Shown: positions 7,884 to 61,106 of the stretch, in pieces
How the letters are laid out: every line of letters starts with the position of its first letter
Numbering within the stretch: position 1 is the stretch's first letter
NCBI GenBank assembly: GCA_029204225.1
Contig: CM055099.1
Coordinates: forward strand, 61,659,753-61,723,752
Direction of reading: 5' to 3'
Length of the DNA stretch: 64,000 nucleotides
Source of the DNA: Diphasiastrum complanatum
Lineage: Eukaryota > Streptophyta > Lycopodiopsida > Lycopodiales > Lycopodiaceae
Translations under genes and position numbers: made by a program
Notes under the pieces: generated by a model
What the model was told of the DNA's origin: nothing
Databases searched by the model: none
What the model saw: the letters and a program-made list of their open reading frames with translations, nothing else

Positions 7884-7884
7884 C

Positions 7885-11600: not shown

Positions 11601-11734
11601 CTATAGTCCATGCCCTTAAGACTTGGAGGCATTATTTGTATGGTGCCAACTTTGAGGTCCAGACCATGAGAGTCTCAGATACCTTTGCAATCAACCTGAG
11701 CTTAGAGGTCGGAAAGCTCGTTGGGCAGAGTTGA
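8687..11734 (+). CDS. Chromovirus Gag-protease-RT-RNase H polyprotein, 3' end frameshifted
   Basis: A 1015-codon frame starting [14 protein letters not shown]. Gag occupies about residues 1-330, with the Retrotrans_gag core around [12 protein letters not shown] and [18 protein letters not shown] knuckle [14 protein letters not shown] is near residue 344 and the aspartic protease motif [11 protein letters not shown] near 436. RT spans about 600-850, with [24 protein letters not shown] and the catalytic FLDDIL near 783. RNase H starts at [13 protein letters not shown]. The frame breaks after FEVQT (about 11665): four bases are missing relative to the expected reading, consistent with loss of one of two adjacent GACC units. 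This removes the last catalytic Asp region of RNase H and gives a short nonsense tail. In life the polyprotein would act in cytoplasmic particles. It is otherwise intact. Confidence 0.95.
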
Positions 11735-13470: not shown

Positions 13471-13481
13471 GGGGGAGGGAG
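13468..13481 (+). other. Polypurine tract of young chromovirus
   Basis: TAAGGGGGAGGGAG overlaps the stop codon of the integrase ORF and directly precedes the 3' LTR TGTTACG. It is the expected plus-strand primer. Confidence 0.9.
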
Positions 13482-13839
13482 TGTTACGAGCTCGTAACCA
13501 GTGCCGAACCCTAGAGAACACAGATAGGTCAGATACCACAATCAGGGTCGTGTCCAGCGTACATGACCAACAGGGCAAGACAGTGTGAGTAGTGTGCCCC
13601 AGCATGGTCCATAGCCATGGCGGGCCTAACACAGCCTAGGGACCCTGTCAGCAGGATAGGGCCCCTAGTTGGGTCCCGACGTGCAGTCGGCCACGTCAGT
13701 GCCATGTGGCCGACACTTGGCAGTAGCATGCTACCAGTCCTCACACTGGGCTAGGAGGGGCTTACTCTATATCAGGGAGTAGGCAAGGTTGGGTGGATCA
13801 GTTAGTGTTTGCCCTACTGTGGTGTTAGGATCTATTACA
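13482..13839 (+). repeat. 3' LTR of young chromovirus
   Basis: 358 bp, matching the 5' LTR except for one G-to-A difference seen near 13541. Followed by the CTTCT target duplication and then by resumed gypsy I gag. Confidence 0.95.
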
Positions 13840-13844
13840 CTTCT

Positions 13845-14549
13845 GCTTCATCTTTTCCCGCTACGTCCACCCCTACATTGGCCCCTTCTGTTCCAGCTCT
13901 CTCCATTGCCCCTTCGCCTCCTCGTCCTCCGACTCCTCGACCTGCTTATGTCCGACGTTACACGTCTGCAGAGTTCGCTGATCTTCAGCAGAAGCGTCTT
14001 TGCTTTCATTGTAAGAGTCCTGACCATCTTGCCCGTGATTGCCGCCAGCCTCTCCCTACTACTACTGCTGTTTTTTACCATGAGGGCACTACTCCAGATG
14101 ATTCCGATATCTACATTCATATTTCTGATGAGCCTGACTTATTATCTGAGCCTTCCCCTGATTTACTTCCTGCTACTTGCCATGCTCAGCTTGCCTATGC
14201 TACTTGGACAAGGCGTCCTGGTCCTCGCTCCATTCGGTTACGTGTGCGTATTACAGGTCGTGAGTATATTGCTTTAGTTGATACTGGTAGCACTCATTCT
14301 TTTATTAGCAGTTATATCACTAGTCGGATCCGTGCTTCACCTATTCCTGCTCTACAGCCTCTCACAGTTGAGGTTGCCAGTTCTCATTCTTTTCCTAGTT
14401 CTCGGATGTTTCAGCGTTTACCATACCGCATTGGAGATTTCTCTAGACAGACAGATCTTTACATTATCCCTATGGAGCGTTATGATCTTATCCTTGGTGC
14501 TGATTGGTTTGCATCTCTTGGAGCCGTTACACTGGACTTGACACAGTAG
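13845..14549 (+). pseudogene. Gypsy I gag C-terminus, zinc knuckle and protease
   Basis: Resumes the gag of 6683-7525 after the nested element (SASSFPATSTPT, a Ser/Pro/Thr-rich linker). It carries a CCHC knuckle CFHCKSPDHLARDC and the retroviral aspartic protease motif ALVDTGSTHSFISS, then the later protease strand LILGADWFASLG. The frame stops at TAG 14547-14549; gypsy II has CAG at the same position, so this stop is a private C-to-T change. About 85 bases further (near 14634) a second TAG follows GK in the same frame, and that one is present in both copies. Confidence 0.88.
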
Positions 14550-17500: not shown

Positions 17501-17610
17501 TACTTGCGGATTAGGCTCGTGCTCTTGCTGCACTTGTTGATTCCTCTACATCAGATGTTTCTCTAGCTGTTGATGCACCAGGGCTTGCTGCTACTTGATC
17601 CGGTTATCTT
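14550..17610 (+). pseudogene. Gypsy I pol: RT, RNase H, integrase, chromodomain-like tail
   Basis: RT (14736-15501) has KRLCIDYRALNK, FSKIDLR-type and HEFRVLPFG boxes and the catalytic YFDDIL; it stops at TAG 15499-15501 where gypsy II has CAG. RNase H (about 15715-16090) shows FLVETDASNVGLGALL and DHQSLRYLFSQRDL. A 5-base loss near 15714 and a 7-base loss near 16280, both relative to gypsy II, shift the frame. The integrase core (16446-17063) has [25 protein letters not shown] and QSEVLNRILEDYL. The tail (about 17160-17514) holds an SH3-like stretch and a chromodomain-like FLVQWDGRPIEEATWEP. The RT box FGDTNGPPTF differs from the usual [10 protein letters not shown], and gypsy II has the same change. 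Confidence 0.88.
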
Positions 17611-17644
17611 TTCGGCAGTTGGGTCTTTTTTTTGTGTTGGGGAG

Positions 17645-18092
17645 AGTTATGGACTCGGCTCATTACATTCGCCGCGTCCATTTACATTTATAGTTACTTT
17701 ACTTTATGCATAAGCAGGCCTTGGGCCCTTTTTTATTCATTAGTGACATTCAAACTATATGGTTGGCCTTTGGCCTTATTATTCATTATTAGGCCATTTG
17801 GACATATTACTGGAGAGTGGGGCCTTCTTGGAGGGCGCACTATTATCCCTCCCAGTTGGGCCCTAGGCACTGGAAGCTTCCTTTTAGAGCTTCCTCTTGG
17901 CTATAAGTAGGGAAACTGTGTCATTTGTCATTCAACTGATGATATTGATCTCTCTTTAGCCTCCTTAATCTCTCTCTCTTTCCTGCTTTCTAGGGTTAAG
18001 TCTTGCTTATGTGCTGCTTTCATAGCTTAAGTCTTGCTTATGTGATGCTTTCATAGCTTAGCTCTAGACCAGCTGTGGCTCTATTCGTAACT
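17645..18092 (+). repeat. 3' LTR of gypsy I
   Basis: 448 bp, AGTTATGG...CGTAACT, preceded by a weak purine tract GTTGGGGAG and followed by the second ACATG target copy (18093-18097). Differs from the 5' LTR by about 17 substitutions and 3 short indels. Confidence 0.92.
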
Positions 18093-25550: not shown

Positions 25551-26960
25551 ATACTACATGGAGATTTTTGCCTATGATGTTTTGTAAAGACCTTCACAAA
25601 ACCTATGATGTGAAACAATTTGAGGTAACCATATTGAATTTCCTCAAAACCTGTAGATTGTTATATTTCAAATGTCCAAACCTCTCGTGCCATGACCTAC
25701 TCATCGTACCTTGCAATTGCCGCTTGATGACTCATCACCTGAGCTTGAAGTTTTTATGACTTACTTGCGAGAACACTTTTAGCTACCATTTCATTGTGCT
25801 TCTTCTTGATAAGACATCGTTCTTCATCAAATTGCGCAATCACATGTTGCTTCGCATAGTTGAAACTGAGAGTAAGTTCTTCTTATGCTAGGTACATTAA
25901 AAACATCCTTGATGTCTAGAACTTGTCCTGAAGGTAAATGAATCCGTACCCTTAATGTCATAGTTGTCCCCAACTTGAGTTTACACATCATCTAGTTGTC
26001 AAGAACTAGATAGCCAATTGCATCGTCTTGTCATATGTCGTGATGCACTTGAGTCTTGAATCTATGATGTCAGATGAAGATGCTGATGCCAAAAGCAATT
26101 CACAATTGCCAAGCTCCAAAGCACCTATCTTCGTATTAAATTTTTCGATTTCCCACCTTTTTCTTTTTGTTGAACTTGTTTTTTCAGCATTCTTTTGCAT
26201 AATGGCCCAACTTACCGCAAATAAAGCAATTTCCTTTCTTGTTTGAATTTGCCTTCTTTTCACCTTTGATTGGTCTTCTCTCAATTCTATTGTTGATCCT
26301 GCTGCTTTTTCTTTGCTTTGTTCTTTTGCCTTTTCCACGTTTCCTGAAATTTTGTCCTAGCTTCTTTGCAATGGATGCTAGTTTTCTATCGTCTCATGAC
26401 AAAATTTTGATAGGCTAGCGATAAACTTTGAAGCATAATGGAAACCAAACCTGAATCAGGAACACTTTCTCCAGTTGCTATAAATTGCCCCCCCCGAGGT
26501 CTTTTTGTTCAAAGAAATTCATCACTGATTCTCCTGTATCCATCTTGAAAGTATGTAGCTTATTAGCTAAGAACAGAACCCTAGATTGATTTACATTCTC
26601 GTACAAATTCTTGAGGACTTCCCAAGCTTCCTTGGGTCTAGCATCATCTCTAATATGAGAGGTATAATCATATCTTTATCTGATAAGTTAGTGATATGAA
26701 GCTTTTCTTCTTCATTTCGGATACTCTCCCAGCTCCCTATCATTGGCTGGAGGTATCTCAGCACCTGTAACAATATCCCAATATTCTCAATCAATGAGAA
26801 ATTTTAAATCTTGAGTTTCCAGATGCTAAAATTCGTACCATTTAGATTACTAGCTTTTGGTAACACAACATCAATCAAACCTGCCATTGTAAAACAATAA
26901 CACTGATCTTCCCTGTAATACGATTTCACATTCTAGAAATCTATAATCTGATCATGCTCC
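25551..26960 (-). pseudogene. Copia C gag, zinc knuckle, protease, GAG-pre-integrase
   Basis: On the minus strand the gag start region near 26885 reads as a Met-Ala-Gly followed by LNGTNFSIWKLK, then the 26794-26591 frame. A CCHC knuckle of the form CFICGKLGHYAKEC lies near 26225 but out of frame with its neighbours. A protease trace, IIDSRLKCITTYDK, stands where DSGASxHMT would be (26070-26030). A GAG-pre-integrase trace (HLKYNNLQVL) is near 25660. Stops and shifts occur every 100-200 bases. The call rests on the order of motifs rather than on any single frame. Confidence 0.7.
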
Positions 26961-41500: not shown

Positions 41501-41654
41501 TGTGAAAAGTTTTTGCACTTGGTGTGTGTGGTTCGGCTAGGGATTGAAACCTAGATCCTCCCCTATTCCGGTGGGGCGCTCTACCATTGAGCTACCCATC
41601 CATTTGTGTTCATAGAATGTTGTGCAAGGGCTATAGCCTTGACACTTTCTAACA
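41501..41654 (-). repeat. TRIM LTR copy A
   Basis: 154 bp, TG...CA on the minus strand. A-box TAGCTCAATGGTAGAGC is intact; the B-box carries one extra T. Confidence 0.85.
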
Positions 41655-41727
41655 CTCCCCCTCAAGGCATAGTCTTTTTTAGCTACCGCCTACCTAGACC
41701 ACATCCACAACCATAGCTCTAATATCA

Positions 41728-41860
41728 TGTGAAAAGTTTTTACATTTGGTGTGAACCTAGGACCTCCTCCATTTTGGTGGAGTGCTCTACCATTCAGCTA
41801 CCCGTCCCATTTGTGTTCCTAGAGAGTTGTGCAAGGATATAGCCTTGACACTTTCTAACA
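41728..41860 (-). repeat. TRIM LTR copy B
   Basis: 133 bp; the tRNA-like part is shortened and the B-box eroded. The preceding 73-bp internal domain (41655-41727) has a mutated PBS (TGATATTAGAGC). Confidence 0.85.
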
Positions 41861-41933
41861 CTCCCCCTCAAGGCATGGCCTTTCTTAGCTACCACCCGCC
41901 CAGACCACACCCCCAACCATGGATCTGATACCA

Positions 41934-42082
41934 TGTGAAAAGTTTTTACACTTGGTGTGTGTGGTTGGGCTAGGGATTGAACCACCTCCCCCATTCTGGT
42001 GGGGTGCTCTACCATTGAGATACCCGTCCATTTGTGTTCCTAGAGTGTTGTGCAAGGGCTATGGCAATGACACTTTGTAACA
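41934..42082 (-). repeat. TRIM LTR copy C
   Basis: 149 bp with the best B-box (GGTTCAATCCC). The adjoining internal domain 41861-41933 has the clearest PBS, TGGTATCAGATCC. Confidence 0.87.
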
Positions 42083-42120
42083 CTCCCTCTCAAGGCATAG
42101 CCCTTTTTAACTATCACCTG

Positions 42121-42564
42121 AGTTATGGACTCAGCTCATTACATTCGCCGCATCCATTTACATTTACAGTTACTTTACTTTATGCATAAGCAGGCCTTGG
42201 GCCCTTTTTTATTCATTAGTGACATTCAGGCTATATGGTTGGCCTTTGGCCTTATTATTCATTATTAGGCCATTTGGACATATTACTGGAGAGTGGGGGC
42301 CTTATTGGAGGGCGCACTATTATCCCTCCCAGTTGGGCCCTAGCCACTGGAAGCTTCCTTTTAGGGCTTCCTCTTGGCTATAAGTAGGGAAACTGGGTCC
42401 CATTCAGCTGATGATATTGATCTCTCTCTTTAGCCTCCTTAATCTCTCTCTTTCCTGCTTTCTAGGGTTAAGTCTTGCTTATGTGCTGCTTTCATAGCTT
42501 AAGTCTTGCTTATGTGATGCTTTCATAGCTTAGCTCTAGATCAGCTGTGGCTCTATTCGTAACT
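42121..42564 (+). repeat. 5' LTR of gypsy II
   Basis: 444 bp, AGTTATGGAC...CGTAACT, followed at once by TGGTATCAGAGC (42565-42576). Confidence 0.92.
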
Positions 42565-42877
42565 TGGTATCAGAGCACTTTTCTGAGCACAATCTGGAAT
42601 TTTTTCTTTGCTGCCTTGCCTTGCTCCTCCATCGCTGTTCCTACAACTCCATTTTCGCTTTCACAGCCCTGTTCCATCGTTGCTCCTTCCACTCCTTCCT
42701 GCCCAGCGCTCCCCCTGTTTTGTCCCCTCTTTTCCTTGCTGCCCAGCGCTCCTCCTCTTCCTTTCCATCGCTGTCCCTGCCTTCCGACCTGTCACTTTCG
42801 TCTGATATTTTTTCAGTTTGCAGCCATCTTCCACAGTTAGTTCCCTGACTGTCCAGCGCCCATCCTCATCCAAAAAC

Positions 42878-43527
42878 TGTGAAAGATTCAACTAGTTTCA
42901 TCACATTTTGCAATATTTCCATATTTGGCATATTGAGGCCAAAACTTGTTTTAGACTTAGAGGTTGACTTTTCAAAGTTCATTAGTCTAAATTTCATTTG
43001 AATAAACACTTTTTGAAAGTGTGGGAAAGATAGAATGTGAGTTTGAGTAGATTCAATTTGAATAAGTTGGGTACATTGAATCTAGACCCAAAATTGCTAG
43101 GGTTAGCATTTTGGTGGGAAAGCCAAGTGGCCAAATAGGGTTTGGACCTGCTATTAAAGGATGTAACTCGTGGAGAGAGTCATCTTCTCTCTTCTCTATC
43201 TCATTTCATGCTTATACATGGTTCTCTTGGGTTCTACTATCCATTGGTGCACTATCTTGGTGATTACTTGCAATTCTATGTGTTGAATGATCTATATTTG
43301 CTATTTTTGGATCCACACGTGTGAAATACAGTAGCTTGCTGGTTTTGTACGGACAGCAACAGTACATAATCATTTCATTCAAGTTTGATCAAGTTCTATT
43401 AGTGTTTGCATCTCAAATTGTGTGTAGATGCTGATTTTTCTACATTGGTGAGATTGGTAGTGTATTTTTCTTTCTAACCAAAGGTCATTCAAGTAGATTG
43501 GATCTTAAGGATCTGAAATCTTTCACA
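42878..43527 (+). mobile_element. Solo LTR related to the copia III LTR
   Basis: 650 bp beginning TGTGAAAGATTC and ending ATCTTTCACA, flanked by AAAAC/GAAAC (42873-42877, 43528-43532; one mismatch) and inserted in the gypsy II leader. It resembles the 647-bp LTRs at 55546 and 60455 along its length: the same TGTGAAA...TTTCACA ends, the CACACGTGTG palindrome at 43313-43322, and phrases such as TTGGGTTCT. The match is clearly diverged, so this is a related family or an old copy. No internal domain is present, as expected after LTR-LTR recombination. Confidence 0.8.
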
Positions 43528-43875
43528 GAAACTACCCAATTCCAACATCATTTGCTATTCCAAACAACCAAAATTCTTCAACTTGTACATCGCTGCCTCA
43601 GCTCCCAACTTGTCACTTTTGCCTAATTTTTTTTTCCATTTCCAGCCATCTTTTACAGCTTCTCAAAAGGCTGTCGCGCGCTCATTCTCCACCACATTTT
43701 CAGGAATTCTGACTCCAGTTAATCTTTCAAATTCACATTTTTTCCCTGGCTGTCCAGTGCATTTTTACAGCCCTTGTTTCCCACTTCTCCATTGTTCATT
43801 GCTGCCTTTTTTCAGTTGTGATAATATTGGTTGTAATAGGCTAATTTGGGGTGACGACAAGAGTTCGCTATCATT

Positions 43876-45530
43876 ATGGCACATTCACCTACCCCGAGTG
43901 AGACTATTTAGGAAACCTTAAGGGATCAGTTTCGTCGCATGGATGAGACCCTTTCTGGCCTCGTTCTTCGCTTAGATTCAGTTATGACCGGCTTTGCTAC
44001 TATGCAGTCACAGATTGATTCTTTACAGCCTCATGGTCCTGGTAAAGCTCCTATTTTTACTATATTTGGGACTCCCCCTCCATTTGGATTTCCATTTTCT
44101 TCTGCTAGTCATCCTGGTGGTGGACCGTTCATTCCATCTAACCCACCTCCTGGTTTCTTTCCTTGTTCCCCCCCTTCCTGAGCCACACTTTGCTCGAGAC
44201 TTTCGTGATAGGGTACAACTTGCTACCTATTCCGGTTCCTCTAACGGGAACTTATTAGAGAATTGGTTTGCTAAGCTTGACACATATTTTCAGATTTACC
44301 CTAAGACTGATCCTTAGAAGATCCAGTTGGCTGCTTTACATTTAGATGGACGTGCCACCACATGGTGGCGAGTTTATAGAGCTGATCCTGATCAGGAAGG
44401 GTTCCATGTATGGCATACTTTTCGCCATGACCTCCGCCATGCTATGATTGATCCTCAGTGGCTTGACTCCCAACGTGATACATTCCGTAGTCTCACTCAG
44501 ACCAGTGATCTTGCTTCTTATACAGATAAGTTTATGGAGCTTTCTTATCTTTTCACAGATCTACAGCCCACTGAGCTTATTTCTCGTTACATTGCTGGGC
44601 TTCGTGGTGCTTTACGTTATGATGTTTCTTCCTTCCGTCCTACCACACTTGTTGAGGCGATGTCTCTTGCCAAGTACTTTACAGCATAAGTACTCTGACA
44701 CCCTTCCTTCCCGCTTCTCCCGACCCCATCCTTTTGCTTCATCTTTTCCCGCTACGTCCACCCCTACACCGGCCCCTTCTGTTCCAGCTCTCTCCATTGC
44801 CCCTTCGCCTCCTCGTCCTCCGACTCCTCGACCTGCTATAGTCCGACGTTACACCTCTGCAAAGTTCGCTCATCTTCAGCAGAAGCGTCTTTGCTTTCGT
44901 TGTAAGAGTCCTGACCATCTTGCCCGTGATTGCCGCCAGCCTCTCCCTACTACTACTTCTGTTTTTTACCATGAGGGCACTACTCCAGATGATTCTGATA
45001 TCTACATTCATATTTCTGATGAGCCTGACTTATCCTCTGAGCCTTCCACTGATTTACTTCCTGCTATTTGCCATGTTCAACATGCCTATGCTACTTGGAC
45101 AGGGCGTCCTGGTCCTCGCTCCATTCGATTACGTGTACGTATTACAGGTCGTGAGTATATTGCTTTAGTTGATACTGGTAGCAGTCATTCTTTTATTAGC
45201 AGTTATATGACTAGTCGGATCCGTGCTTCACATGTTCCTGCTTCACAGCCTCTCACAGTTGAGGTTGCGAGTTCTCATTCTTTTCCTAGTTCTCAGATGT
45301 TTCAGCGTTTACCATACCGCATTGGAGATTTCTCTAGATAGACAGATATTTACATTATACCTATGGAGTGTTATGATCTTATCCTTGGTGTTGATTGGTT
45401 TGCATCTCTTGGAGCCGTTACATTGGACTTGACACAACAGACATTGACATTTGTACATGATGCAATTACACACTCACTTGTTGGCATTGATTCTCAGGGA
45501 GACTTCCAGTTGATTACTGGGAAGTAGTTT
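43876..45530 (+). pseudogene. Gypsy II gag and protease
   Basis: Starts at MAHSPTPSETI (43876) and carries stops that gypsy I lacks: TAG near 43909, TAG near 44317 and TAG near 45339, each where gypsy I has CAG or a sense codon. A one-base insertion near 44671 and a base difference in the Pro-rich linker shift the frame. Gag core (DFRDRVQLATYSGSS, TTWWRVYRADPDQEG), CCHC knuckle (CFRCKSPDHLARDC) and protease (ALVDTGSSHSFISS) are present. The region ends with GK and TAG near 45526, the stop shared with gypsy I. Confidence 0.88.
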
Positions 45531-48231
45531 ATTCGCAGCCTGCCGAAGGCTCATTGTGCTGCCGTATTATGCGTTCAGCGGGCAGTACCAGTTCCTCCAG
45601 TTTCTACACCAGCAGCTGTTCCTCAGGTGATTTCTGACTTATTACATCAGTATGTTTTTGTCTTTTCAGAACCTACGATGCTACCACCATTACGTGACGT
45701 GAACCATCATATTGACTTGCGTCCTGGTTCTGCTCCTCCTTCCCGTCCCCCTTATCGTATGTCTCGATCTGAGCGTGATGAGCTTGAGCTCCATATTACT
45801 GCCTTGTTAGATCATGGTCTCATTGTTCCTAGTCACAGCCCTTTTGGTGCTTCTGTTCTCCTTATTAATAAGAAAGATGGTACCAAACGCCTTTGTATTG
45901 ATTACCGCGCTTTAAATAAGTTGACTATTCGTAATCAGTACCCTATTCCACACATGGATGACCTCTTTGACCAACTCGGTACCTCTAAAACCTTTTCCAG
46001 GATAGACCTTCGTTCTGGATATTACCAAATCAGGATGCACCCTTCTGACGAACATAGAATTGCTTTCCGTACTCATCTTGGTTTACATGAATTTCGTGTG
46101 CTTCCTTTTGGTGATACTAATGGCCCTCCTACATTCCAGAATGTGATGAATAACGTCCTGCGTCCGCTTCTTGGTCATTGTGTCTTGGTTTATTTTGATG
46201 ATATTCTTATTTTTAGTCAGTCTCTTGCTAAGCATGTTGCCCATCTTTCCTCTGTCTTCCAGTTACTTGTACAACACCAGTTATTTGCTAAGTTGTCTAA
46301 ATGTTCTTTTGTTGTTTCTGAGATCGAGCTTCTTGGTTTTCTTATTTGTAATGGTCACATTCGTCTGGACCCTCATAAGGTTCAGGCCATCCAGGATTGG
46401 CCTATACCTACTGATATTCATCATGTTCGTATGTTTCTTGGGTTAGCCACTCACCTTCGTCGTCCAGTTCCTCTTTTTGCCACTATCGCAGCTCCTCTTC
46501 ATGCACTTTTGAAGAAGTCTAATACTTTTCTTTGGACTTCTGATTGTCAGACAACGTTTGATACTCTTCGTCGTGCTGTTGTTGATGCTGCCGTTATGTG
46601 TTTACCACAGTTTGATCAGAAGTTTCTTGTTGAGACTGATGCCAGTAATGTTGGTTTGGGTGCTTTACTTCGCCAGTCACAATGTATTATTGCTTATGAG
46701 TCGCGTCGTCTTCGCTCTTATGAGCAACGTTATTCTGTGCATGAGAAAGAGCTTCTTGCTATTATCTATGCTCTTAAGAAGTGGCGTCATTATCTGTATC
46801 GAGTCCCATTTGACATTATTACTGATCACCAGCCTGTTTTCTCAACGTGACCTTAGTGATCGTCAATTTCGTTGGTTGTAGTTTTTACAGTCTTTTAATT
46901 TCTCCATATTGTATCGTCCTGGTCGTGCTAACACTGCTGCTGATGCATTATCTCGTCTTCCAGCTTTGTTAAATACACTCGTTTCTACTATTCCTCCATG
47001 GTTTGATGTCCTACCTGCAGCATACCTTACATGTTCTGATTTTCGTGATGTTTATAGTTCTGTCCAACCTGTTTCGTCCAGTCCTCATCAGGTTTACTCC
47101 ATTATTGACAATCGTCTTTATCATTATGATTCTCTTTGTATCCCTAGTTCTTTGGGTATCCGTTCCCGGTTGTTGTCGGATGCTCATTCCTCTCCTGTTG
47201 GGGGTCACTTTGGTTTTCAAAAGTCTTATGCTCGTCTCAAAGACCATTTCTATTGGCCCTCTCTTTGATCTGAGCTTGTTGTACTTATTCGTACCTACCC
47301 TTTTTGTCTTCGTAATAAGTACTCCCGTGCTAAATCTGCTGGTTTGCTCCAGAGTTGGCCTATTCCTCATCACTAGTGGACTGATATATCTATGGACTTT
47401 ATCCTTGCCCTTTCCCATACCCAGCGTGGTCACGATTCATGTATGGTGGTAGTTGACAGGTTCTCGAAACAGACACATTTTATCCCAGTTCGCAGCACTA
47501 TCACAGCAGAGCAGTGTGCACGTTTGTTCCTATCAGAGATTTTTCGCCTGCATGGATTTCCTTGTACTATCCTTTCTGATCGAGATAGTAAGTTTACATC
47601 TATATTCTGGACAAAGCTTATGCGTATTTTGGATGTTCAGCTTTTTATGAGTTCTGCTTATCATTCTACTTCTGATGGGCAGTCTGAGGTCCTTAACAGG
47701 ATCCTTGAGGATTATTTATGCCATTTTGTTACTCCTTCAGGGAAGGATTGGGATCAGCATTTATGTTTAGCAGAGTATAGCTATAACAGGGCCATGCTTC
47801 TACTGAGAAGCTTGCACCACGTTATTATGGGCCTTATCGCATTGTGGGAGGTTCTTAGTCCAGTTACATATCGCTTACAACTTCCTACTTCCACATGCGC
47901 CTGTGATGTATTCCATGTCAGTTTATTACGTGCTGCTATTGAGGATGACGCTCCTTGTGATGCTGAGTTTCCTACTGCTCTAGAGTTATTTCCATTTTTA
48001 CCTGCTGCTATATTACAGGTCCGTCTATACCATAGTCGACGCCGTCGGCAGATTCAATTTTTGGTCCAGTGGAATGGTCGTCCTATTGAGGAGGCCACAT
48101 GGGAGCCTATTGATGTCTTTTATCCTACACCATTACTTGCGGATCAGGCTCGTGCTCTTGCTGCACTTGTTGATTCCTCTACATCAGATGTTTCTCTAGC
48201 TGTTGATGCACCAGGGCTTGCTGCTACTTGA
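45531..48231 (+). pseudogene. Gypsy II pol: RT, RNase H, truncated integrase, chromodomain-like tail
   Basis: RT and RNase H share one 407-codon frame (45627-46850) with KRLCIDYRALNK, FGDTNGPPTF, YFDDIL and FLVETDASNVGLGALL. It ends where about 11 bases, present in gypsy I, are lost just after DHQ in RNase H. The H2C2 module (VGGHFGFQKSYARLKDHFYW) is intact to a stop near 47268. The integrase core (47392 onward) has [25 protein letters not shown] and SEVLNRILEDYL. After AEYSYN about 270 bases are missing, and the frame continues to the chromodomain-like FLVQWNGRPIEEATWEP and a stop at 48231. This copy is useful as the comparison that shows which stops in gypsy I are private. Confidence 0.88.
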
Positions 48232-48276
48232 TCCAGTTATCTTTTCGACAGTTGGGTCTTTTTTTGTGTCGGGGAG

Positions 48277-48725
48277 AGTTATGGACTCGGCTCATTACAT
48301 TCGCCTCGTCCATTTACATTTACAGTTACTTTACTTTATGCATACACAGGCCTTGGGCCCTTTTTTATTCATTAGTGACATTCAGACTATATGGTTGGCC
48401 TTTGGCCTTATTATTCATTAGTAGGCCATTTGGACATATTACTGGAGAGTGGGGACCTTCTTGGAGGGCGCACTATTATCCCTCCTAGTTGGGCCCTAGC
48501 CACTGAAAGCTTCCTTTTAGGGCTTCCTCTTGGCTATAAGTAGGGAAACTGTGTCATTTGTCATTCAACTGATTATATTGATCTCTCTCTTTAGCCTCCT
48601 TAATCTCTCTCTTTCCTGCTTTCTAGGGTTAAGTCTTGCTTATGTGCTGCTTTCATAGCTTAAGTCTTGCTTATGTGATGCTTTCATAGCTTAGCTCTAG
48701 ATCAGTTGTGGCCTTATTTGTAATT
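48277..48725 (+). repeat. 3' LTR of gypsy II
   Basis: 449 bp; starts AGTTATGG after the purine stretch GTCGGGGAG. Its last bases have decayed to TTTGTAATT. Confidence 0.9.
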
Positions 48726-48757
48726 GCCTACCTACTAGACCACACCCACAACCATAG

Positions 48758-48960: not shown

Positions 48961-50583
48961 AAATCCTACTCCTACGGTGCTCCTCTCATTTCATCATTTC
49001 TCTGAGCAACTGCCTTCTCTTGGTTTGTCTATTCAACCTCGCAAGTGTTCAGTGTGGTCTCCAACAGGTCTACCCCCGGACTTTGTTCCTCCTCAAGGTC
49101 TCCTTGCTCCTTCGGATGGCATTCGCATTCTGGGTGTTCCTTTTGGGTCTGCTTCCTTCAGCTCTACTTTTCTTGGTGAGGCTCTCCAGGAGGATGTTGC
49201 TCATTCAGATCTGCTTCCCTGGTTGGGCAACAATCAGGTCACGTTTGCATCTTGATGTCTTGCTTTATCCAGCGTCCTTCTTATCTGCTGCGGACTTTCC
49301 TCCCTACTTAGGACTTTTTGCATCTTCTCTCTTCCTTTGACAGCTCTATTATGGATTTTTTTGGCTGCCTTTTGGGCCCAGGTTTTTTGGATGGTGTGGA
49401 GACCCTTTCAACCAGGCTCGATTACGCATTTCTTGTGGAGGTGTGGGTTTTCTCTCTACGGTTTCTTCTGCACATGCAGCTTTTCTTGGGAGCTGGGCTC
49501 TTGTCGCCCCTACTTTGTCTTCTTTGTTCCTCTCTGGATTTCGCCCTCTCTTGGCGGATTGCATTGCTCATGTGGATAGCGGTTCTCTGCCTTTCCAACA
49601 CCTCCTCATCGCTGCGCGAGAGCTCCTCCCCCTCTCTGCCCAAGCTTGTCTTCATCCTTTTGAGCAACTCCCCATTTTCAGCTCAGATCACCTGCAAGAG
49701 ACCCTCTTGGAGCGCGTGCACAAGCAAACCCTTTTCAGCATGCTCTCTAAGGCTCCTTCGACGTTTCATCGAGCTTGGCTTCTTTCTTGTGCGGGTCCTG
49801 GTGCGAGGGCTTAGCTGTCAGCTCGGCCTATTATTCCTTCCTTTTGCTTGTCTTCGGCCATCTTCGCCACTGCTCTTCATCTTCGCTTGGAGCTATCTCA
49901 TCCTTCGGTCTTGGGTCTCTCCAGGTTTGTTTGTGGTCACCCTATTGATGCTCTTGCTATCCACCTCCTTCGTTGTCCTTCTGGAAGTGAGCGCACAACT
50001 ACGCATGATGTTGTCAAAGATGCAGCAGCCGCTATAGCCAGAGATGGAGGATTCCATGTCCTCAGAGAGCACTCTTGTGTCCTTCCTTCTTCCGCATCCC
50101 ACTCTTCGCGCAGGTGTGTTGACATTGTCCTCTCTCGGGATGGGCTTCGTACTTTGGCAGATGATGATGTTGCTGATCCCATGCATGGTGACCTATTGCC
50201 TTGCTCTGCCTTCACACCAAGAGAAGCGGCAGGCGTGGCAGCACAAGAGAAGGAAAAAAACTACTCCGACAGGCACCCCACTGATGCTTAATTCCCCTGA
50301 CAATTGAGACTTATGGCACCTTGCATCGACGCTTTGAGGATTTTCTTCGCATGTGTTCTCATCAGGCGGCAGAGCGTCAAGGTATTCCTGGTTCTATTCT
50401 CGTGGCTTCTGTCAAACAACGTATTTCCATTGCCTTGCAACGTGCTCAGGCCCTATCAATTCTGCAACGGGCGACGGTGGCTGGATCTGCTACATCTCAT
50501 CTCCCTTCATTAGCCGACTCCCCACTTCTTCACTTTTCTGATTTGCTGCAGTCATTTGGCAGACTCCCACTGACATCATCATA
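48961..50583 (+). pseudogene. LINE RT C-terminus and endonuclease-like domain
   Basis: The readable frames are 48961-49255 (RT thumb-like), 49443-49814 (alpha-helical linker), 49848-50291 (Cys/His cluster and nuclease-like block) and 50321-50584 (C-terminal HFSDLLQSFGRLP). Stops separate them at about 49255, 49815 and 50291. The RT fingers and palm with the YxDD box are missing, as in 5'-truncated LINE copies. In intact elements this protein nicks the target and reverse-transcribes its own RNA there. I see no APE-type endonuclease because the 5' part is absent. Confidence 0.65.
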
Positions 50584-50741
50584 GTTTATGCACTTTTAAT
50601 TTTAATGCCAAGATCTGGATTAATCTTAACTTTACTGCAAGCTTCGCTCTTGTTTGAGCTTACTTTTGTTTAAACCTCCCCTTCGGGGTGTATATATCTT
50701 TTTCATCAATGTACCTACTACTTTTTCCTATGAATAAATGC
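48961..50741 (+). mobile_element. LINE 3' part (5'-truncated)
   Basis: Coding remnants in three frames. The first resembles the RT thumb region of non-LTR elements (GLSIQPRKCSVWSPTGLP, DGIRILGVPFGS). Next comes a long helical region (49443-49814: QTLFSMLSKAPSTFHRAWLL). Then there is a Cys/His cluster (CGHPIDALAIHLLRC, near 49932) followed by VDIVLSRDGLRTLADDDVADP and the end segment ERQGIPGSILVASVKQRIS. A Cys/His cluster followed by a D...D nuclease-like block is typical of LINEs with a restriction-like endonuclease; that assignment is inference. The 3' UTR ends GAATAAATGCACCAGGGTA. An inverted second copy of the 3' end lies at 51263-52041. Confidence 0.75.
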
Positions 50742-51262
50742 ACCAGGGTACTTATATGTAAATTAGTACATACGTGGATCCCACATGTGATCCATGTTTC
50801 CACGTGTGTAGGCTATTCTATTAGGTTACATATCATTCATATGGTTAGTTAGGTTTGTTTGGTCATAATTTCATATTATATTATATTATATTATATTATA
50901 ACCCAACGGGGTTGTCTTAGTTGGTTAGCTTGACATCCAAAGTTTCTTTGGTCTCAGGTTCGAGCCTCCCCTTGGAAACCAAGAAGCATAATTCCATATT
51001 ATAGGACCAAACTATTCCTTGAATCGTGGAGGTGGATAACCAACCTACCCACCAACTTGGCAAAACTCTAGGGTTAGGTAAGATTGACAAATTAGGGCAA
51101 AAATGGTAAAATCATATTCCTTATTACATGCTGGATTTTCACCTAACTTGAGGTGGGGAAGAGCTTATTGTACATACAATCCATCATTCCATAGTGAGGG
51201 GCTAGAATTTTTGGAGCATATTGGCAATCTTGAGTATTCTACATATTTGTCTTGAAGAAATA
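50742..51262. other. Spacer between the two LINE ends
   Basis: AT-rich spacer holding the SINE-like insertion (50901-50986) and an (ATATT)n run at about 50875-50900. No gene. Confidence 0.5.
50901..50986 (+). mobile_element. tRNA-derived SINE-like insertion
   Basis: An 86-bp tRNA-like block beginning ACCCAACGGGG, with an A-box-like TTAGTTGGTTAG, an anticodon-stem-like hairpin CCAAAG-TTT-CTTTGG and a B-box GGTTCGAGCC. Near-identical 17-bp direct repeats flank it: CATAATTTCATATTATA (50864-50880) and CATAATTCCATATTATA (50987-51003). A short (TTATA)n expansion lies between the left repeat and the block. The long direct repeats indicate LINE-type retroposition. It is not a working tRNA gene: the acceptor stem does not close properly. 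Confidence 0.65.
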
Positions 51263-52041
51263 CCCTGGTGCATTTATTCATATAAAAAACTATTAGGTAC
51301 ATTGATGAAAAAAATATATACACCCCAAAGAAAAAGTTTAAGCAAAAGTAAGCTCAAACAAGAGTGAAGCTTGCAATAAAGCTAAGATTAATCCAAATCC
51401 TGGCATTCAAAATAAAAGTGCATAAACTATGATGATGTCAGTGGGAGTCTGCCAACTGACTGATTGTAGCAGATCAGAAAAGTGAGGAGGTGGCGAATCT
51501 ACTAATGAAGGGAGATGAGATGTAGCAAACCCAGCCACCGTCGCCCGTTGCAGGATTGATAGGGCCTTGACACGTTGCAGGGCAATGGAAATACGTTGTT
51601 TGAAAGAAGCCATGAGAATAGAACCAGGAACACCTTGCCGCTCTACCGCCTGATGAGAGTACATGCGAAGAAAATCCTAAAAGCGTCAATGCAAAGTGCC
51701 ATAAGTCTCAATTGCCAAAGGAAGAAGAGCATCAATAGGGTGCCTGTCGGAGTAGTTTTTTTCCTTCTCTTGTGCTGCCACGCTTGTCACTTCTCATGGT
51801 GTGAAGGCAAAGCGAGGCAGTAAGTCACCATGCGTGCGATCAACAACAACAACATCTGCCAAAGTACGAAACCCATCCTGAGAGAGGACAATGTCAACAT
51901 GCCTACGGAAAGAGTGGGATGCAGTAGAAGGAAAGACATGCGACTGCTCTCCAAGGACATGGAATCCTCCATCTCTAGCTATAGCGGCCGCTACATCTCT
52001 GACAACATCATGCGTAGCTATGCGATCACTCCCAGTAGGAA
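51263..52041 (-). mobile_element. Second LINE 3' end, inverted
   Basis: Minus-strand copy of the same LINE family: the frame 51664-51407 (ERQGVPGSILMASFKQRIS, SILQRATVAGFATSHLP) and the 51972-51787 region match the 50044-50584 region of the first copy. Both copies end in GAATAAATGCACCAGGGTA, so they lie tail to tail. Several frameshifts. The 5' boundary is near 52041, where the old chromovirus relic resumes. Confidence 0.8.
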
Positions 52042-55200: not shown

Positions 55201-55545
55201 AATAAGCGAGACTCGAATTCATGAGAGAACTGTATTTCTCTCACGCCAACACACTGTGTGGATCTGCATGCGGTGCTTGGAGAATCAGGAAAAATCAATA
55301 GATAATTTTGTAGCTGTTGTGCACATTATTATTCTAGATGATTGTATGATCTTGTATGTAAATTCGTCTGCTACTATTCGTGTGTCTGATTCGCTTGTTC
55401 ATTCTATTCCGCACTTTGGTTTGATCTTGTTGAATGCTACATTAATTTGTTAACGTAGATCAACAGTGTCTGACTACTCTCCGAAAGATTGTAGGAGTGA
55501 TACAATTGGCAGTGACCAGCAATCACATCTGAATTTCTAACGAAC
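52211..55545. other. AT-rich sequence without recognisable genes
   Basis: No coding feature found on either strand; short frames such as 54061-54252 are low-complexity Phe/Ile/Lys text. The last part (about 54850-55545) is interrupted by copia III and continues at 61107, and probably belongs to the LTR or leader of copia D. One hairpin is listed separately. Confidence 0.5.
54462..54543. repeat. 25-bp inverted repeat (hairpin)
   Basis: Arm 54462-54486 begins TGTTGAGCATAGCAAGAGCA; arm 54519-54543 is its reverse complement with one mismatch. The loop is 32 bases. No target duplication or gene is associated. It could be a MITE remnant or a small-RNA-forming hairpin; neither is shown. Confidence 0.75.
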
Positions 55546-55622
55546 TGTGAAAATTGTCAACATTTCCTTGTCTAGTTTTAGGCCAAAATTGCTAAAAATG
55601 GCACATAGTTTAGGATCTGACT

Positions 55623-55638
55623 TTTCACACGTGTGAAA
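55623..55638. promoter_or_regulatory. Palindrome with ACACGTGT core in the LTR
   Basis: TTTCACACGTGTGAAA is a perfect 16-bp palindrome upstream of the TATA box, repeated at 60532-60547. The core CACACGTGTG is kept in the diverged solo LTR at 43313. ACGTG cores bind plant bZIP and bHLH factors, so it is a candidate enhancer. It also looks like an LTR end (TTTTCACA) facing an LTR start (TGTGAAA). Confidence 0.55.
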
Positions 55639-55815
55639 CAGGTCTAGATATTTTTAGTAAGTGTATTTTTTCAGTATGAAGAAGTGTCAAACTTCAAGAC
55701 CTTCGAAATGAGTCCATTTTCATGTATTTTGGACATATATGCCAATTTTACCTATATAGGGCATATTTTAGGTAAGGAGGGTCTAGAGAGAGGAGAGAGA
55801 GTCATCTCTCTCAGC

Positions 55816-55823
55816 TATATATA
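55816..55823 (+). promoter_or_regulatory. TATA box of element III LTR
   Basis: TATATATA in CAGCTATATATAGCAGG, with a purine-rich stretch upstream. The position, about 270 bp into the LTR, suits a U3 promoter. Confidence 0.7.
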
Positions 55824-56192
55824 GCAGGTAGGCCGTGGAGAAACAGGTTGGAGCAGATCCATTGTATTCATTTGCTTAATGAGAGATTTTTCTATTGGGT
55901 TCTCCTTCCATTGTTGGCATTGTGTAGTGATTGAGTTCAAGCTTTGTGTGTATGATCTTAGGTGCTTTCCAAAAGTGGTAGGCTGATGTATTATGGACTG
56001 TATAATGCTATTTTGGGCCGCACTTGATGTTTATGGAAGTTTCCATTTGTGATAAATGTTTTTTGATCAAGTTCTTTGCATTCTAGGTAGCATAGAATGT
56101 GTTGCCAATTCCTAGCTTATGTAGTTTGGAGTGCAAGCATTCAAGCCAATGATCTTGGAGTTTAGATCCACTTAGGATCTGTATTTTTCACA

Positions 56193-56204
56193 TGGTATCA
56201 GAGC
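56193..56204 (+). other. Primer binding site of element III
   Basis: TGGTATCAGAGC immediately after the LTR terminal CA. Initiator-Met tRNA type. Confidence 0.96.
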
Positions 56205-57366
56205 TGGTTGGCTTCTATTCATAGTAAGTATTCCATTTTTGGTGATATTTGGATGTTTGATCAAGTTCTAGCATGATTTTGCATTGCTTTGTTGATCAAA
56301 TCTTACTAACCTTTGTTTTGTGAGTTGAACTTGTGGATCAAAAGCATATTTCAGGTCTATTGAAGATCAGAGGCTGAAAAGAAACTATTTTGGATCAGAT
56401 CATAACACCTAATCATTTGTTGATTGTGAGGCTTGTGCATATTCAATACTAACAATGTTCTTTTCAATCCTATTGTTGACAATCTCCATTCTTGGATGAA
56501 CACTCTCCTTAAGTGGATGAAACTTCTCCTTAAGTGGATGACAAATGCTCTTTTGAGTGAGTTGTAATTCTCCTAAAGGCTGAGCAAAGCTCCCATTTGG
56601 ATGAAAGATCCCCTTTTTTGGGTGAACATATTGTAAGCTCCATTGTGAAGAGCATATTGTAAAGATTGTCATCAATTTTGGCATAAATTTTGGTGTACTT
56701 TGTTGAGCATGTAAGTAACTCTCCTTATGTAATTTGATTGGAGCATTTGCTGGAAGGTGTTAACCATTATGCAAGTGTGTTTTCAGGTTCTTAACAGGTT
56801 GAGGAACATTCTCATGTGAAGTGATCTTAGATCTACATCTAAACACCAAATTTTGACAAGATAGTGAAGCTAGTCTTGTGATTCACTAAGTGTGCTCATT
56901 CATTCACCTCTAAATATTGTATTTATCACTTGCTGGAGTTTATAAACTTTTAGAAGTGTGGTTTACATGTGGTTTTACAGGTTGAATCAATATCTTAGTG
57001 TGGTGATCATATGTTGATCAAGTTTGTTCATTACTAGGTAATTTTGGCATCCTAGTTTTGGGTATTTTCTAAGAATGCAAGTAACTCTTCACACCATAAC
57101 TTGATTTGGTCACTTGCTGGAAAGTTTGAGAGCTTAAGCAAGAGTGTGTTCAGGTTGGTTTGAGTTTGTAATCCATTCTTAGTGTGTGCAAAGTGTTGCA
57201 TGTGTTTCAATCTTCCTTTCTATGCTTGAAAGCCAAATAGTTTCAAGATAGAGGTCATTTAGGGTTCTAAATCTTTTAAGATCTTCTCCTTCTTCATTTA
57301 TTGAGAGAAAGGAGAGTGCTAGGTGCATTAGAACAGAGCCTAAGGACACAAGAAGATTTTAGCATC
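56205..57366 (+). other. Element III leader with three ~184-bp repeats
   Basis: Three diverged units, spaced 183-184 bases, share CACTTGCTGGAAAGTTT (near 56746, 56929 and 57113) and a following CAGGTT (near 56785, 56983 and 57154) preceded by T-rich sequence. Two units also share GCAAGTAACTCT-type starts. GTAAGT occurs near 56222. The CAGGTT sites look like splice acceptors, so the leader may be spliced; packaging or internal-initiation roles are equally possible. Confidence 0.6.
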
Positions 57367-60300
57367 ATGACATCCAATGGTGGAATCATGTTGGAAGCTA
57401 AAGAGAGGTTAAACTCTACAAACTATTCAACTTGGAAAGTGAGGATGGAGTCTTTACTAGAGTTGAATGAGCTAATGGATATAGTTGTGGGAATTGAAGA
57501 AAGACCTCTAATTCTTCAAGAGCAACTAAATTTTGATAGAAGGGCTAAAAGAGCCTTACATATCATAAAGATGAATGTTACCAATGAACTTCTTAAAGAA
57601 GTTGGTAAATGTACTTCTTCAAGTGAAGCATGGAATGCTTTGAAGAAGATCTATGAGTCCAAATCCACATCTAGGGTTCTCACCCTAAGAAGGCAAATCT
57701 TCCAAAGTTGTCAAAGAGAGGGAGAGAGTGCACATTCATTTGTCTTGAAGGTTAAATCCTTGAATGATGATCTAGCATGCATAGATGAAAGCATAAAGGA
57801 TGGGGAACTAGTTCAAGTCATGTTGAATGGTTTGCTTGATGAACATTCTAACCTTGTACAATGCTTTGCTATACAAAAGTCCTTGCCAAGTGTCAATGAC
57901 TTGCAAGAGATCTTGGTGGCTGAAGAGCATAGGTTGCAAGCCAAAGGTGGTGGTGCATCAACACAAGGTGGAGATGAAGAAGCTCTTTTCACAAAGGGCA
58001 AGTTCAAAGGCAAGTGGTCCAAGCAAGGTAGTTTGGAGCATGGAAAGCATTCTTCTTCTTTGCAAAGTAGGAAGCAAGATAAGTCCAAGTTCAAATGTTT
58101 TTATTGTGGGATAAAAGGACATTTTGCAAATGAATGCCATAAGAAACAAAATGCTAGATCTAGGTTGAGATCTAATGTACTTCTTGGAGATGATAATTGT
58201 TGTGCTAACTTGGCAAGCTTTGGTGAATCTATGGTCAATTTTTTGGATCCATTGGATCTTGAAGATGCACTAGTGTTACCTACTAGTCATATGGAGTCAT
58301 GTGGAGCTAAATTAGCATCATGTTTGTACTCTTCTACTCATGGACTTCCAAGGCTTGGTGGTTCTTCAATGGTGCTAGATGGCAAGTGCAAAAATGGAAA
58401 AGGTAAGGAAGGAGCTAACTTCATCAATGGAGTTGATGAAGATTCTTCTTTGGAAGTGATTGTTGCTAATGACTTGTTTGTTCATATGGAAAAAGATGGA
58501 GATGCTAAGTGTCATTCTTTGCAAGAAGATGGTTGTTCTTCTAATTCTTTTCATATTGATGTATGTAATCATGTGGGAAAAGATGATGGTGCTTTGAGCA
58601 TGCTTGAAGGAAATGGTTCTTTTACATCTTTTTGTGATAAAGTCATTTGTGCAACAAGTGGTGTCACATTTCTTCATAAAAAGAGTAGATCAAAGGTTTC
58701 TATCATGAGACTTGGTGAGGGAGATCACAAGTCAAAAGGAAGAGAAGTATGTGAAGTGTTCAAAGTAGGATGTACTTTGAATGATGTTTTTATGAACGAT
58801 AGTGAGGAAGAATCATTATCATATGACTCATTACCTAAATCATTGAGTAGAAGTTCATGTTTGAAAAGAGAGAGTACTTCAATCACTCTTATGTTGAAGG
58901 TACTAAGGATTCTTTTCTTGGCTTCTAATATTCAAGAGTCTTCTACTTCTTATGGTGCAACTATCAAGAGGGAGGTTTCTAACTTTTGTGGTGCTAGCAT
59001 TAAGAGGGAGTCTTGTGAAGGAAAGGGCAATGGAAGAGTGGTTCTTGGGAAGATCCAAAGCATGGATCTAACATCTCTTCATCAACTCAAAGCATTCTAT
59101 GATTGTGGTGGATTGTTCATTCATGGTCAAGATGGCAAAAGGTTGGTTGAAGAAGACTACATGGAGCAACTCAAGTGGCAACTTCTTCAAGGCAAGGGAG
59201 ATATCATTGGTGAGCTTATTGAGGTTTGTTATGAACTCAAGAGGGCTGTTTTGATTAGGTTTGATACTCATCTTCACCTACTCTACTTCATGTTAAATGG
59301 AAATGTTGGAATCTATCTTTTGGTTTATGATGGTGGCATTGTTTTCACTAACTATAGTGAAGGGTCAAATTTGAGCATTGATGAGATCTTGTGGGATCTT
59401 AATCATGTGTTTGAGAGGGAGTATCTTCAGAGTTTCAGATCTGAAGATGTTCACATATGCAAGATCTTTGATGTCTTATTGGAAGATCAAGAGGTTGATC
59501 TTGGATTGCTTCATCAACACCAAGAGACAAGTGGCAATTCGAAGCTAGTGAAAAGCATCAAAGAAGAGACAAATGGTCAAGGCATTTTGGATCTGTTTTT
59601 ACAGGTTCTTGAAGGTTCAAGTAAGGTCTTTGGAGCTACAAGGAAGTGTCTTCTTACTCTACCTCACTTGCCTAATCTCATGTATGAACATTGTTATGTC
59701 AATGTGTTGAAATTGTCAAATTTCAATAAAACTAGTTCCATAGTTTTGCATCCTTTGGATCTTGGAGATGGAATAGTTATCATTGCTGGTTTGTATGATC
59801 AAGTACATGAATTCATTCAGATCTTGAAAGGTATTGAAGTGGTCAATATGTTTTCTTTTGAACAAAGTTCAAGATCTAGTATTCTAGTGTTGGCAAATTG
59901 GCAACTTGTTGACATTGTAGGATCAAGCGTTGTGTGCAAATCTTGTGGAGGTACTTCAAGTATTTCAAGTTCAGGTTTTGGTCATTCAAATGGAGTAGGG
60001 AACACATCTTTTTGGCATTCATTCACTCAAAGGCTTTCATGGATTGAAGATCTACAAAGGCAAGGTGGTGATGGAAGTTCATTCATGGAGATACATGTTG
60101 CATTCACTATATGTATAGTGAAATGTGGAGGAGGCATGCAAACACTTGTTGATCACTTTCATTTACAACTTGTTTGCTACTATTTTACAGAGAAACCAGA
60201 GATGGATACATGGAGGAATTCATTAATTGAGATTCTATGTTCTTTTACATGTACCATTTTTATGATTCTATGTAAAATTGATGTAAGAAATAGTGAAGCA

Positions 60301-60441
60301 TCCTATATGGACACTATTATCTATATCAATTATGTTGTGTCCTATTTTGTACATATTAGGATCCTTGAGAAGAGATCTATTCTGATGATGGAGATCATTC
60401 TTAAGTTGGAACAAAGTAGTGTTGTAAAACTAGCAAGTTAA
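57367..60441 (+). CDS. Gag fused to a ~770-residue unknown domain
   Basis: The start ATG at 57367 (MTSNGGIMLEAKERL) is chosen as the first Met of the copia-like Gag text; the frame is open back to 57301 without one. Residues about 10-190 are a UBN2-type Gag: LNSTNYSTWKVRMESLL, SEAWNALKKIYESKS, MLNGLLDEHSNLVQCF. A CCHC knuckle CFYCGIKGHFANEC starts near residue 244. The rest matches no family I know. It is Ser/Gly/Cys-rich around 290-560 and more hydrophobic later (for example LIRFDTHLHLLYFMLNGNVG, SIVLHPLDLGDGIVIIAGLY, FTCTIFMILCKIDV). No DSG protease, DDE, YVDD or RNase H motif is seen. An uninterrupted 3-kb frame in an AT-rich element argues that it is translated. The function of the tail is unknown; it may be a captured host sequence or a replacement for pol. 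Confidence 0.85.
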   Translation: MTSNGGIMLEAKERLNSTNYSTWKVRMESLLELNELMDIVVGIEERPLILQEQLNFDRRAKRALHIIKMNVTNELLKEVGKCTSSSEAWNALKKIYESKSTSRVLTLRRQIFQSCQREGESAHSFVLKVKSLNDDLACIDESIKDGELVQVMLNGLLDEHSNLVQCFAIQKSLPSVNDLQEILVAEEHRLQAKGGGASTQGGDEEALFTKGKFKGKWSKQGSLEHGKHSSSLQSRKQDKSKFKCFYCGIKGHFANECHKKQNARSRLRSNVLLGDDNCCANLASFGESMVNFLDPLDLEDALVLPTSHMESCGAKLASCLYSSTHGLPRLGGSSMVLDGKCKNGKGKEGANFINGVDEDSSLEVIVANDLFVHMEKDGDAKCHSLQEDGCSSNSFHIDVCNHVGKDDGALSMLEGNGSFTSFCDKVICATSGVTFLHKKSRSKVSIMRLGEGDHKSKGREVCEVFKVGCTLNDVFMNDSEEESLSYDSLPKSLSRSSCLKRESTSITLMLKVLRILFLASNIQESSTSYGATIKREVSNFCGASIKRESCEGKGNGRVVLGKIQSMDLTSLHQLKAFYDCGGLFIHGQDGKRLVEEDYMEQLKWQLLQGKGDIIGELIEVCYELKRAVLIRFDTHLHLLYFMLNGNVGIYLLVYDGGIVFTNYSEGSNLSIDEILWDLNHVFEREYLQSFRSEDVHICKIFDVLLEDQEVDLGLLHQHQETSGNSKLVKSIKEETNGQGILDLFLQVLEGSSKVFGATRKCLLTLPHLPNLMYEHCYVNVLKLSNFNKTSSIVLHPLDLGDGIVIIAGLYDQVHEFIQILKGIEVVNMFSFEQSSRSSILVLANWQLVDIVGSSVVCKSCGGTSSISSSGFGHSNGVGNTSFWHSFTQRLSWIEDLQRQGGDGSSFMEIHVAFTICIVKCGGGMQTLVDHFHLQLVCYYFTEKPEMDTWRNSLIEILCSFTCTIFMILCKIDVRNSEASYMDTIIYINYVVSYFVHIRILEKRSILMMEIILKLEQSSVVKLAS

Positions 60442-60444
60442 GTT

Positions 60445-60454
60445 GAAGAGGGAG
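60445..60454 (+). other. Polypurine tract of element III
   Basis: GAAGAGGGAG directly before the 3' LTR TGTGAAAA and just after the ORF stop. Confidence 0.88.
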
Positions 60455-61101
60455 TGTGAAAATTGTCAACATTTCCTTGTCTAGTTTTAGGCCAAAATTG
60501 CTAAAAATGGCACATAGTTTAGGATCTGACTTTTCACACGTGTGAAACAGGTCTAGATATTTTTAGTAAGTGTATTTTTTCAGTATGAAGAAGTGTCAAA
60601 CTTCAAGACCTTCGAAATGAGTCCATTTTCATGTATTTTGGACATATATGCCAATTTTACCTATATAGGGCATATTTTAGGTAAGGAGGGTCTAGAGAGA
60701 GGAGAGAGAGTCATCTCTCTCAGCTATATATAGCAGGTAGGCCGTGGAGAAACAGGTTGGAGCAGATCCATTGTATTCATTTGCTTAATGAGAGATTTTT
60801 CTATTGGGTTCTCCTTCCATTGTTGGCATTGTGTAGTGATTGAGTTCAAGCTTTGTGTGTATGATCTTAGGTGCTTTCCAAAAGTGGTAGGCTGATGTAT
60901 TATGGACTGTATAATGCTATTTTGGGCCGCACTTGATGTTTATGGAAGTTTCCATTTGTGATAAATGTTTTTTGATCAAGTTCTTTGCATTCTAGGTAGC
61001 ATAGAATGTGTTGCCAATTCCTAGCTTATGTAGTTTGGAGTGCAAGCATTCAAGCCAATGATCTTGGAGTTTAGATCCACTTAGGATCTGTATTTTTCAC
61101 A
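60455..61101 (+). repeat. 3' LTR of element III
   Basis: 647 bp; reads the same as the 5' LTR throughout by eye. Followed by the second CGAAC. Confidence 0.96.
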
Positions 61102-61106
61102 CGAAC

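Follow-up and report, generated by a model that had tools for sequence, protein, structure and literature searches.

Anatomy of the element

The DNA analyzed here (the window) is a stretch of 64,000 nucleotides from Diphasiastrum complanatum (assembly GCA_029204225.1, contig CM055099.1, positions 61,659,753 to 61,723,752 of the forward strand), and all coordinates refer to it. On its plus strand, at 55546-61101, lies a complete long terminal repeat (LTR) element whose single open reading frame (ORF; 57367-60441, ATG at 57367, TAA at 60439-60441) encodes 1024 amino acids, formed by a copia-type Gag and a long C-terminal tail in which no pol was recognized. All the features of an LTR retrotransposon were found, namely an LTR pair, a target duplication, a primer-binding site, and a purine tract. 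The 5′ LTR (55546-56192, with TG...CA ends) and the 3′ LTR (60455-61101) each measured 647 bp and, when compared directly, were identical at 647/647 positions. Perfect copies of the target-site duplication CGAAC border them (55541-55545 and 61102-61106). The primer-binding site TGGTATCAGAGC (56193-56204), directly 3′ of the 5′ LTR, has the same 12 bases as those given for Tos17 and Lullaby in PMC3977881; it is followed by a long leader (56205-57366), and the polypurine tract GAAGAGGGAG (60445-60454) directly precedes the 3′ LTR. The original prediction had described two LTRs that look identical, a perfect 5-bp duplication, a primer-binding site, a purine tract, and Gag and tail in one frame of 1024 codons between 55546 and 61101; the LTR comparison and the reading of the ORF bore out each of these points.

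The identity of the LTRs and the perfect duplication indicate a recent, ordinary integration. Assuming annual substitution rates of 1.3e-8 or 5e-9 per site, the LTR identity over 647 bp gives a 95% upper bound on the insertion age of ~0.18 or ~0.46 million years, respectively. The 5′ LTR contains a TATA-like TATATATA near 55816 and a G-box-like CACGTG at 55628, which includes one of the only four CG sites of the LTR; both may belong to the promoter.

Gag domains encoded by the ORF

A Pfam search with the whole ORF recognized a copia-type Gag (DUF4219 plus Retrotran_gag_2) at residues 15-193 (57409-57945). Retrotran_gag_2 (PF14223) matched residues 27-193 with an expectation value (E) of 5.3e-22, and DUF4219 matched residues 15-40 at E 2.3e-6, with 27.6 bits, slightly over the cut-off of 27. 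The CCHC zinc knuckle at residues 243-257 (58093-58137) scored 17.8 bits (E 0.0035), under the curated 20.8, and its CX2CX4HX4C pattern is exact. The copia Gag and its knuckle are intact in this ORF. Elsewhere in the window, the closest Gag match, with 31% identity, was to a minus-strand relic at 2251-3042, and a weaker one was found at 26187-26869. The copia assignment is based solely on Gag (PF14223), as the pol order cannot be read where no pol is recognized.

No recognizable pol in the tail

The tail comprises residues 271-1024 (58177-60438) and contained no protease, integrase, or reverse transcriptase (RT) motif among those searched. The original prediction had counted about 770 unrecognized residues; there are 754 from residue 271 on, or 767 if the count starts where the knuckle ends. 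Pfam returned nothing significant for the tail (lowest E 0.55), and it matched none of the Protein Data Bank (PDB) sequences up to E 10; for the whole ORF, the four PDB matches all lay at the knuckle, with E from 0.18 to 9.2. A weak NCBIfam match was rejected (E 0.045 for the tail and 0.025 for the last 504 residues), since it reached 14.3 and 15.2 of 94 bits. The patterns D[ST]G[AS], [FY].DD, and HHCC, representing protease, RT, and integrase motifs, were absent from the whole ORF.

As a control for Pfam, four ORFs in the pol regions of copia relics within the window were submitted, and both copia RT ORFs were recognized, at E 5.3e-73 and 4.5e-21. When pieces of the tail were compared with the 64-kb window, a single match besides self was obtained, at E 0.26. 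The ORFs of the copia relics, compared with the element, gave a Gag-to-Gag match at E 9e-18 and otherwise values of at least 0.49, with one exception; this lowest match of a relic pol ORF (E 0.010) fell in the leader on the opposite strand, and none below 0.5 fell in the tail. In keeping with the original prediction, no pol was recognized by Pfam, by motif patterns, or by comparison with the copia ORFs of the window, and the tail did not align to degenerate copia pol, the outcome that would have contradicted the prediction, in searches whose control recognized RT but not RNase H.

Relatives were also sought in viral, prokaryote, and plasmid collections, where silence is weak evidence. Against viral contigs, the whole ORF, two tail stretches, and Gag gave 0, 0, 1, and 4 pattern-matching stretches, none of them confirmed; against contigs of prokaryote genomes, 734 tail residues and the whole ORF gave 12 and 19, again none confirmed. 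The plasmid collection contained no match to the DNA at 57367-58800 or to the tail protein. An Env-like reading of the tail was rejected, as the mean hydropathy of its top hydrophobic stretch (residues 953-971; 2.07) was equaled or exceeded in 36.4% of 1000 shuffled tails.

Within the tail, the sequence at 58201-58274 recurs at 59703-59777 with 72% identity in an alignment of 76 columns (E 2.8e-6, compared with 0.001 for the best of 40 Markov shuffles), and the two copies of this internal repeat encode the similar stretches LDPLDLEDA and LHPLDLGDG. The repeat was not listed in a protein self-comparison of the ORF. It nevertheless probably represents a real, old duplication.

Coding character of the tail

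In the frame of Gag, the 754 codons of the tail contained no stop, whereas 2000 base shuffles had 57.2 stops on average and never fewer than 35; the five other frames had 35, 78, 45, 45, and 69 stops. A score for bases by codon position, trained on Gag, placed the reading frame at the top of the six frames in 14/14 windows of the tail; it was negative in 7 of the 14, and the tail does not closely share the base positions of Gag. Period-3 power in three parts of the tail (9.2, 9.0, and 4.5) exceeded all 200 shuffles of each (maxima 3.75, 3.0, and 3.8). A long open frame with in-frame base periodicity is most naturally read as pointing to selection on a protein. The Gag-fusion protein under selection that had been proposed is therefore favored to the extent that 754 stop-free codons with such periodicity point that way; the selection itself we infer.

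Common loss of CG and CHG sites

The element contained 11 CG sites, compared with 176.7 expected from base content. The depletion extended through all its parts, with 0/36.1 observed to expected sites in the leader, 0/28.1 in Gag, 3/69.8 in the tail, and 4/21.0 in the LTR. GC dinucleotides were normal for the whole element (173/176.7) and somewhat low in the tail (56/69.8). CG in the whole window stood at 0.46 of expectation. When the window was divided into 252 segments of 1 kb, of which 8 straddling the edges of the element were excluded, the CG ratio had a median of 0.03 (range 0-0.14) in the 18 segments inside the element and of 0.47 in the 226 outside; a single outside segment (at 4001, 0.087) fell within the inside range.

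CHG sites were depleted as well. Relative to Markov expectation, CAG/CTG occurred 1/29.8 times in Gag, 12/76.2 in the tail, 15/39.0 in the leader, and 10/20.3 in the LTR, while the left and right flanks had 1536/1806.6 and 58/86.4. This effect was less singular than that of CG, since 27/226 outside segments were within the inside range (0-0.43) and two were at or under the inside median; for CG and CHG jointly, the figure was 0/226. The control GAC/GTC was low in the leader (0.37) and the tail (0.56), but not in Gag (0.86). When synonymous codons were redrawn with the protein fixed, 0/1000 sequences were as CG-poor or as CHG-poor as Gag or the tail, and the result was again 0/1000 for both when codon usage was also fixed. 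All of the arginine codons (38/38) were AGA or AGG.

TG and CA were raised in the element (1.22 and 1.60, compared with 1.15 and 1.23 in the whole window), an excess that fits the prediction of deamination. Because the LTRs are identical, decay after insertion is not the cause of the loss; the composition is inherited and was present in the lineage before this insertion. Assuming a plant host, either long methylation and deamination could have acted while selection kept the frame, or the loss of sites could itself have been favored. The loss in the tail nearly equals that in Gag, which argues for a long residence of the tail in the element and disfavors the recent capture of a host gene; judged by composition and not by relatives, the tail has probably been resident for long. 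This depletion goes beyond what the original prediction contained. No CG-free plant element was named in the titles or abstract openings of the related papers listed, which does not show its absence from print.

Repeats and upstream ATGs in the leader

Counted from the primer-binding site (56193), the leader has 1174 bases with 17 upstream ATGs, and its longest upstream ORF has 23 codons. It contains two plus-strand copies of a repeat (56674-56818 and 57040-57186) that are 70% identical over 149 columns (E 2.6e-15; the best among 40 Markov shuffles was 0.001). Donor-like GTAAGT occurs in the leader at 56224 and 56711, together with several acceptor-like CAGGT sites; within the repeat, copy 1 has the donor-like GTAAGT and copy 2 has GCAAGT, with the acceptor-like TTCAGGTT. 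From these motifs, a spliced leader is possible. If the leader were spliced before translation, the upstream ATGs would plausibly be bypassed, and unspliced RNA would be kept for packaging.

Other features of the window

A nested insertion occupies 5546-18092. The LTRs of its inner element, gypsy-looking by eye, lie at 7526-7885 and 13482-13841 and are 99.7% identical; those of the outer element lie at about 5546-5995 and 17644-18092, and this outer element has a relative at 42120-48726 that is ~95% identical. An inverted repeat of ~780 bp has arms at 49976-50753 and 51258-52040 that are 88% identical. Rfam reported a tRNA match on the minus strand at 41529-41601 (42.6 bits) that ARAGORN did not report; it adjoins repeated sequence at 41548-42118 and is possibly a tRNA-derived repeat.

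Comparison with known elements

LARD elements have a long internal region devoid of coding capacity; the element described here, with its ORF of 1024 codons, is not of that type. SIRE1 is one of the plant LTR elements with an additional ORF, and Bs1 of maize has a Gag fusion and no full pol. TR-GAG elements are described as having a single GAG-domain ORF between two LTRs, without pol (PMC9784723, PMC8704663), and PlantLTRdb is reported to hold 3,147 of them among 520,194 intact elements (PMC10025401). The present element likewise has two LTRs around one ORF with a GAG domain and no recognized pol, but this ORF codes for ~754 residues beyond Gag, compared with the GAG-only ORF of the TR-GAG description. 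A close likeness is AT5TE33540 of ATCOPIA63, which, according to PMC8704663, has two LTRs and a single copia Gag ORF without pol and transposed in Arabidopsis ddm1; its ORF encodes 562 amino acids, compared with 1024 here, about three quarters of which form the unrecognized extension. In the BARE-2 type, gag is disrupted and the remaining genes are intact (PMC9744471), the reverse of the present case, in which Gag is intact and pol is not recognized.

The original prediction had held that non-autonomous types carry Gag only or nothing. This proved too narrow, since wheat has, besides semi-autonomous GAG-protease elements, non-autonomous variants whose short ORFs are unique (PMC9744471). The accounts of wheat and barley describe non- or semi-autonomous elements that retain GAG, with RT and integrase missing and autonomous partners proposed, namely RLG_Sabrina and RLG_WHAM in both cereals and RLC_Giselle in barley; in some Sabrina variants there are short ORFs that are unique, and four of these show no homology to other proteins of wheat (PMC9744471, PMC5738225). 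Sabrina and WHAM differ from the present element in being gypsy elements that keep the protease in wheat, and in the Sabrina variants the unknown ORFs, which are short, stand in place of GAG-Pro, whereas here Gag is extended.

Extra coding sequence of unknown role is kept by Bagy2, Grande, and Retand, in which, as outlined in PMC7264820, it accompanies gag-pol, mostly as separate ORFs between pol and the 3′ LTR. Bs1 resembles our element as an LTR element with coding sequence of a non-retroelement kind, acquired by transduction according to the same source; its inserts are, however, recognizable pieces of host genes, whereas the tail is unrecognizable and has the element's own composition. Domesticated Gags fused to another protein are described for HadGAG1-3 and Ctrg10 (with PF14223 in HadGAG1 and 2; PMC9784723), which are multi-exon genes without flanking LTRs, whereas the element studied here is mobile, with its LTRs intact.

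Origin and role of the Gag extension

Since no pol was recognized, the element is most likely non-autonomous. We consider it likely that it is a recently inserted, semi-autonomous copia element of the TR-GAG kind that is mobilized in trans, and that its Gag carries a long-held, selected extension of ~754 residues, which would most probably be a part of the particle. In cis, the element would contribute its RNA, which bears the LTR, the primer-binding site, the purine tract, and presumably also a packaging signal, and it would encode a Gag polyprotein with capsid, zinc knuckle, and C-terminal extension. The protease, integrase, RT, and RNase H would come in trans from a helper copia, in mixed particles where the Gag-tail protein would co-assemble with the Gag and Gag-Pol of the helper and take up its own RNA. 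Located where pol stands in Gag-Pol, the tail would lie inside the particle, as a cargo or spacer carried by Gag that the helper protease may or may not cleave off.

Several observations weigh against this reading. No further LTR copies were found within the 64-kb window, and the Gag-tail element was seen as a single copy. AlphaFold2, run without relatives, gave very low mean pLDDT confidence (34.8 and 40.0), uninformative on the fold of the tail. The period-3 measure is insensitive, as Gag itself would be missed (power 2.7, shuffle maximum 2.98; for the leader, 2.8 and 3.3), and a stop-free frame by itself biases codon positions, which contributes to periodicity signals. In the Pfam control, two of the four ORFs, read by eye as RNase H, obtained no match, so that the silence of Pfam alone cannot exclude a fast-diverged pol remnant; it speaks against RT in the tail and weakly against RNase H, with protease and integrase having had no control.

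That the tail is a former copia pol, diverged past recognition once its enzymatic role was lost, would agree with its occupying the place and frame of pol and with the RNase H-read ORFs that likewise escaped Pfam. We regard this as very improbable: the RT ORFs of the copia relics were readily recognized, the best tail match in the window had E 0.26, the relic pol ORFs gave nothing below 0.5 in the tail, and decay able to erase RT should have left stops. It is improbable, too, that a copia element acquired host coding sequence by transduction and joined it to its Gag, in the manner of maize Bs1. The tail matched no retroelement profile, transduction by Bs1 is described in PMC7264820, and sunflower genes without LTRs are reported to have Gag fused to host proteins (PMC9784723); however, the tail had no significant Pfam domain or PDB sequence match, and being almost as CG-free as Gag makes a recent event unlikely, an argument that leaves an old, diverged capture unaffected. 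The captured host domain offered as a possibility in the original prediction is accordingly disfavored as a recent capture. If the family were otherwise autonomous, and one copy had by chance been joined in frame to a functionless tail, this would suit the single copy at hand, but 754 stop-free codons with in-frame periodicity require a coding source, and one extreme composition is common to leader, Gag, and tail, which makes this a very unlikely explanation.

A further proposal, which we hold to be rather unlikely, is that a family that has lost almost all of its symmetric methylation sites (CG in every part, CHG within the ORF) could be transcribed where its neighbors are silenced, and that the old tail protein on Gag would aid in competing for or exploiting helper copia elements.

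If further copies confirm the semi-autonomous Gag-tail element, it would be a Gag-only parasite whose Gag bears a large family-specific module at the place of pol, and it would offer a natural test of how an extension of Gag functions in plant retroelements. An almost CG-free element amid a CG-containing neighborhood also raises the question of whether activity may be kept by offering maintenance methylation few sites, or whether the loss of CG would be only a mark left by long methylation on a lineage whose protein was preserved.

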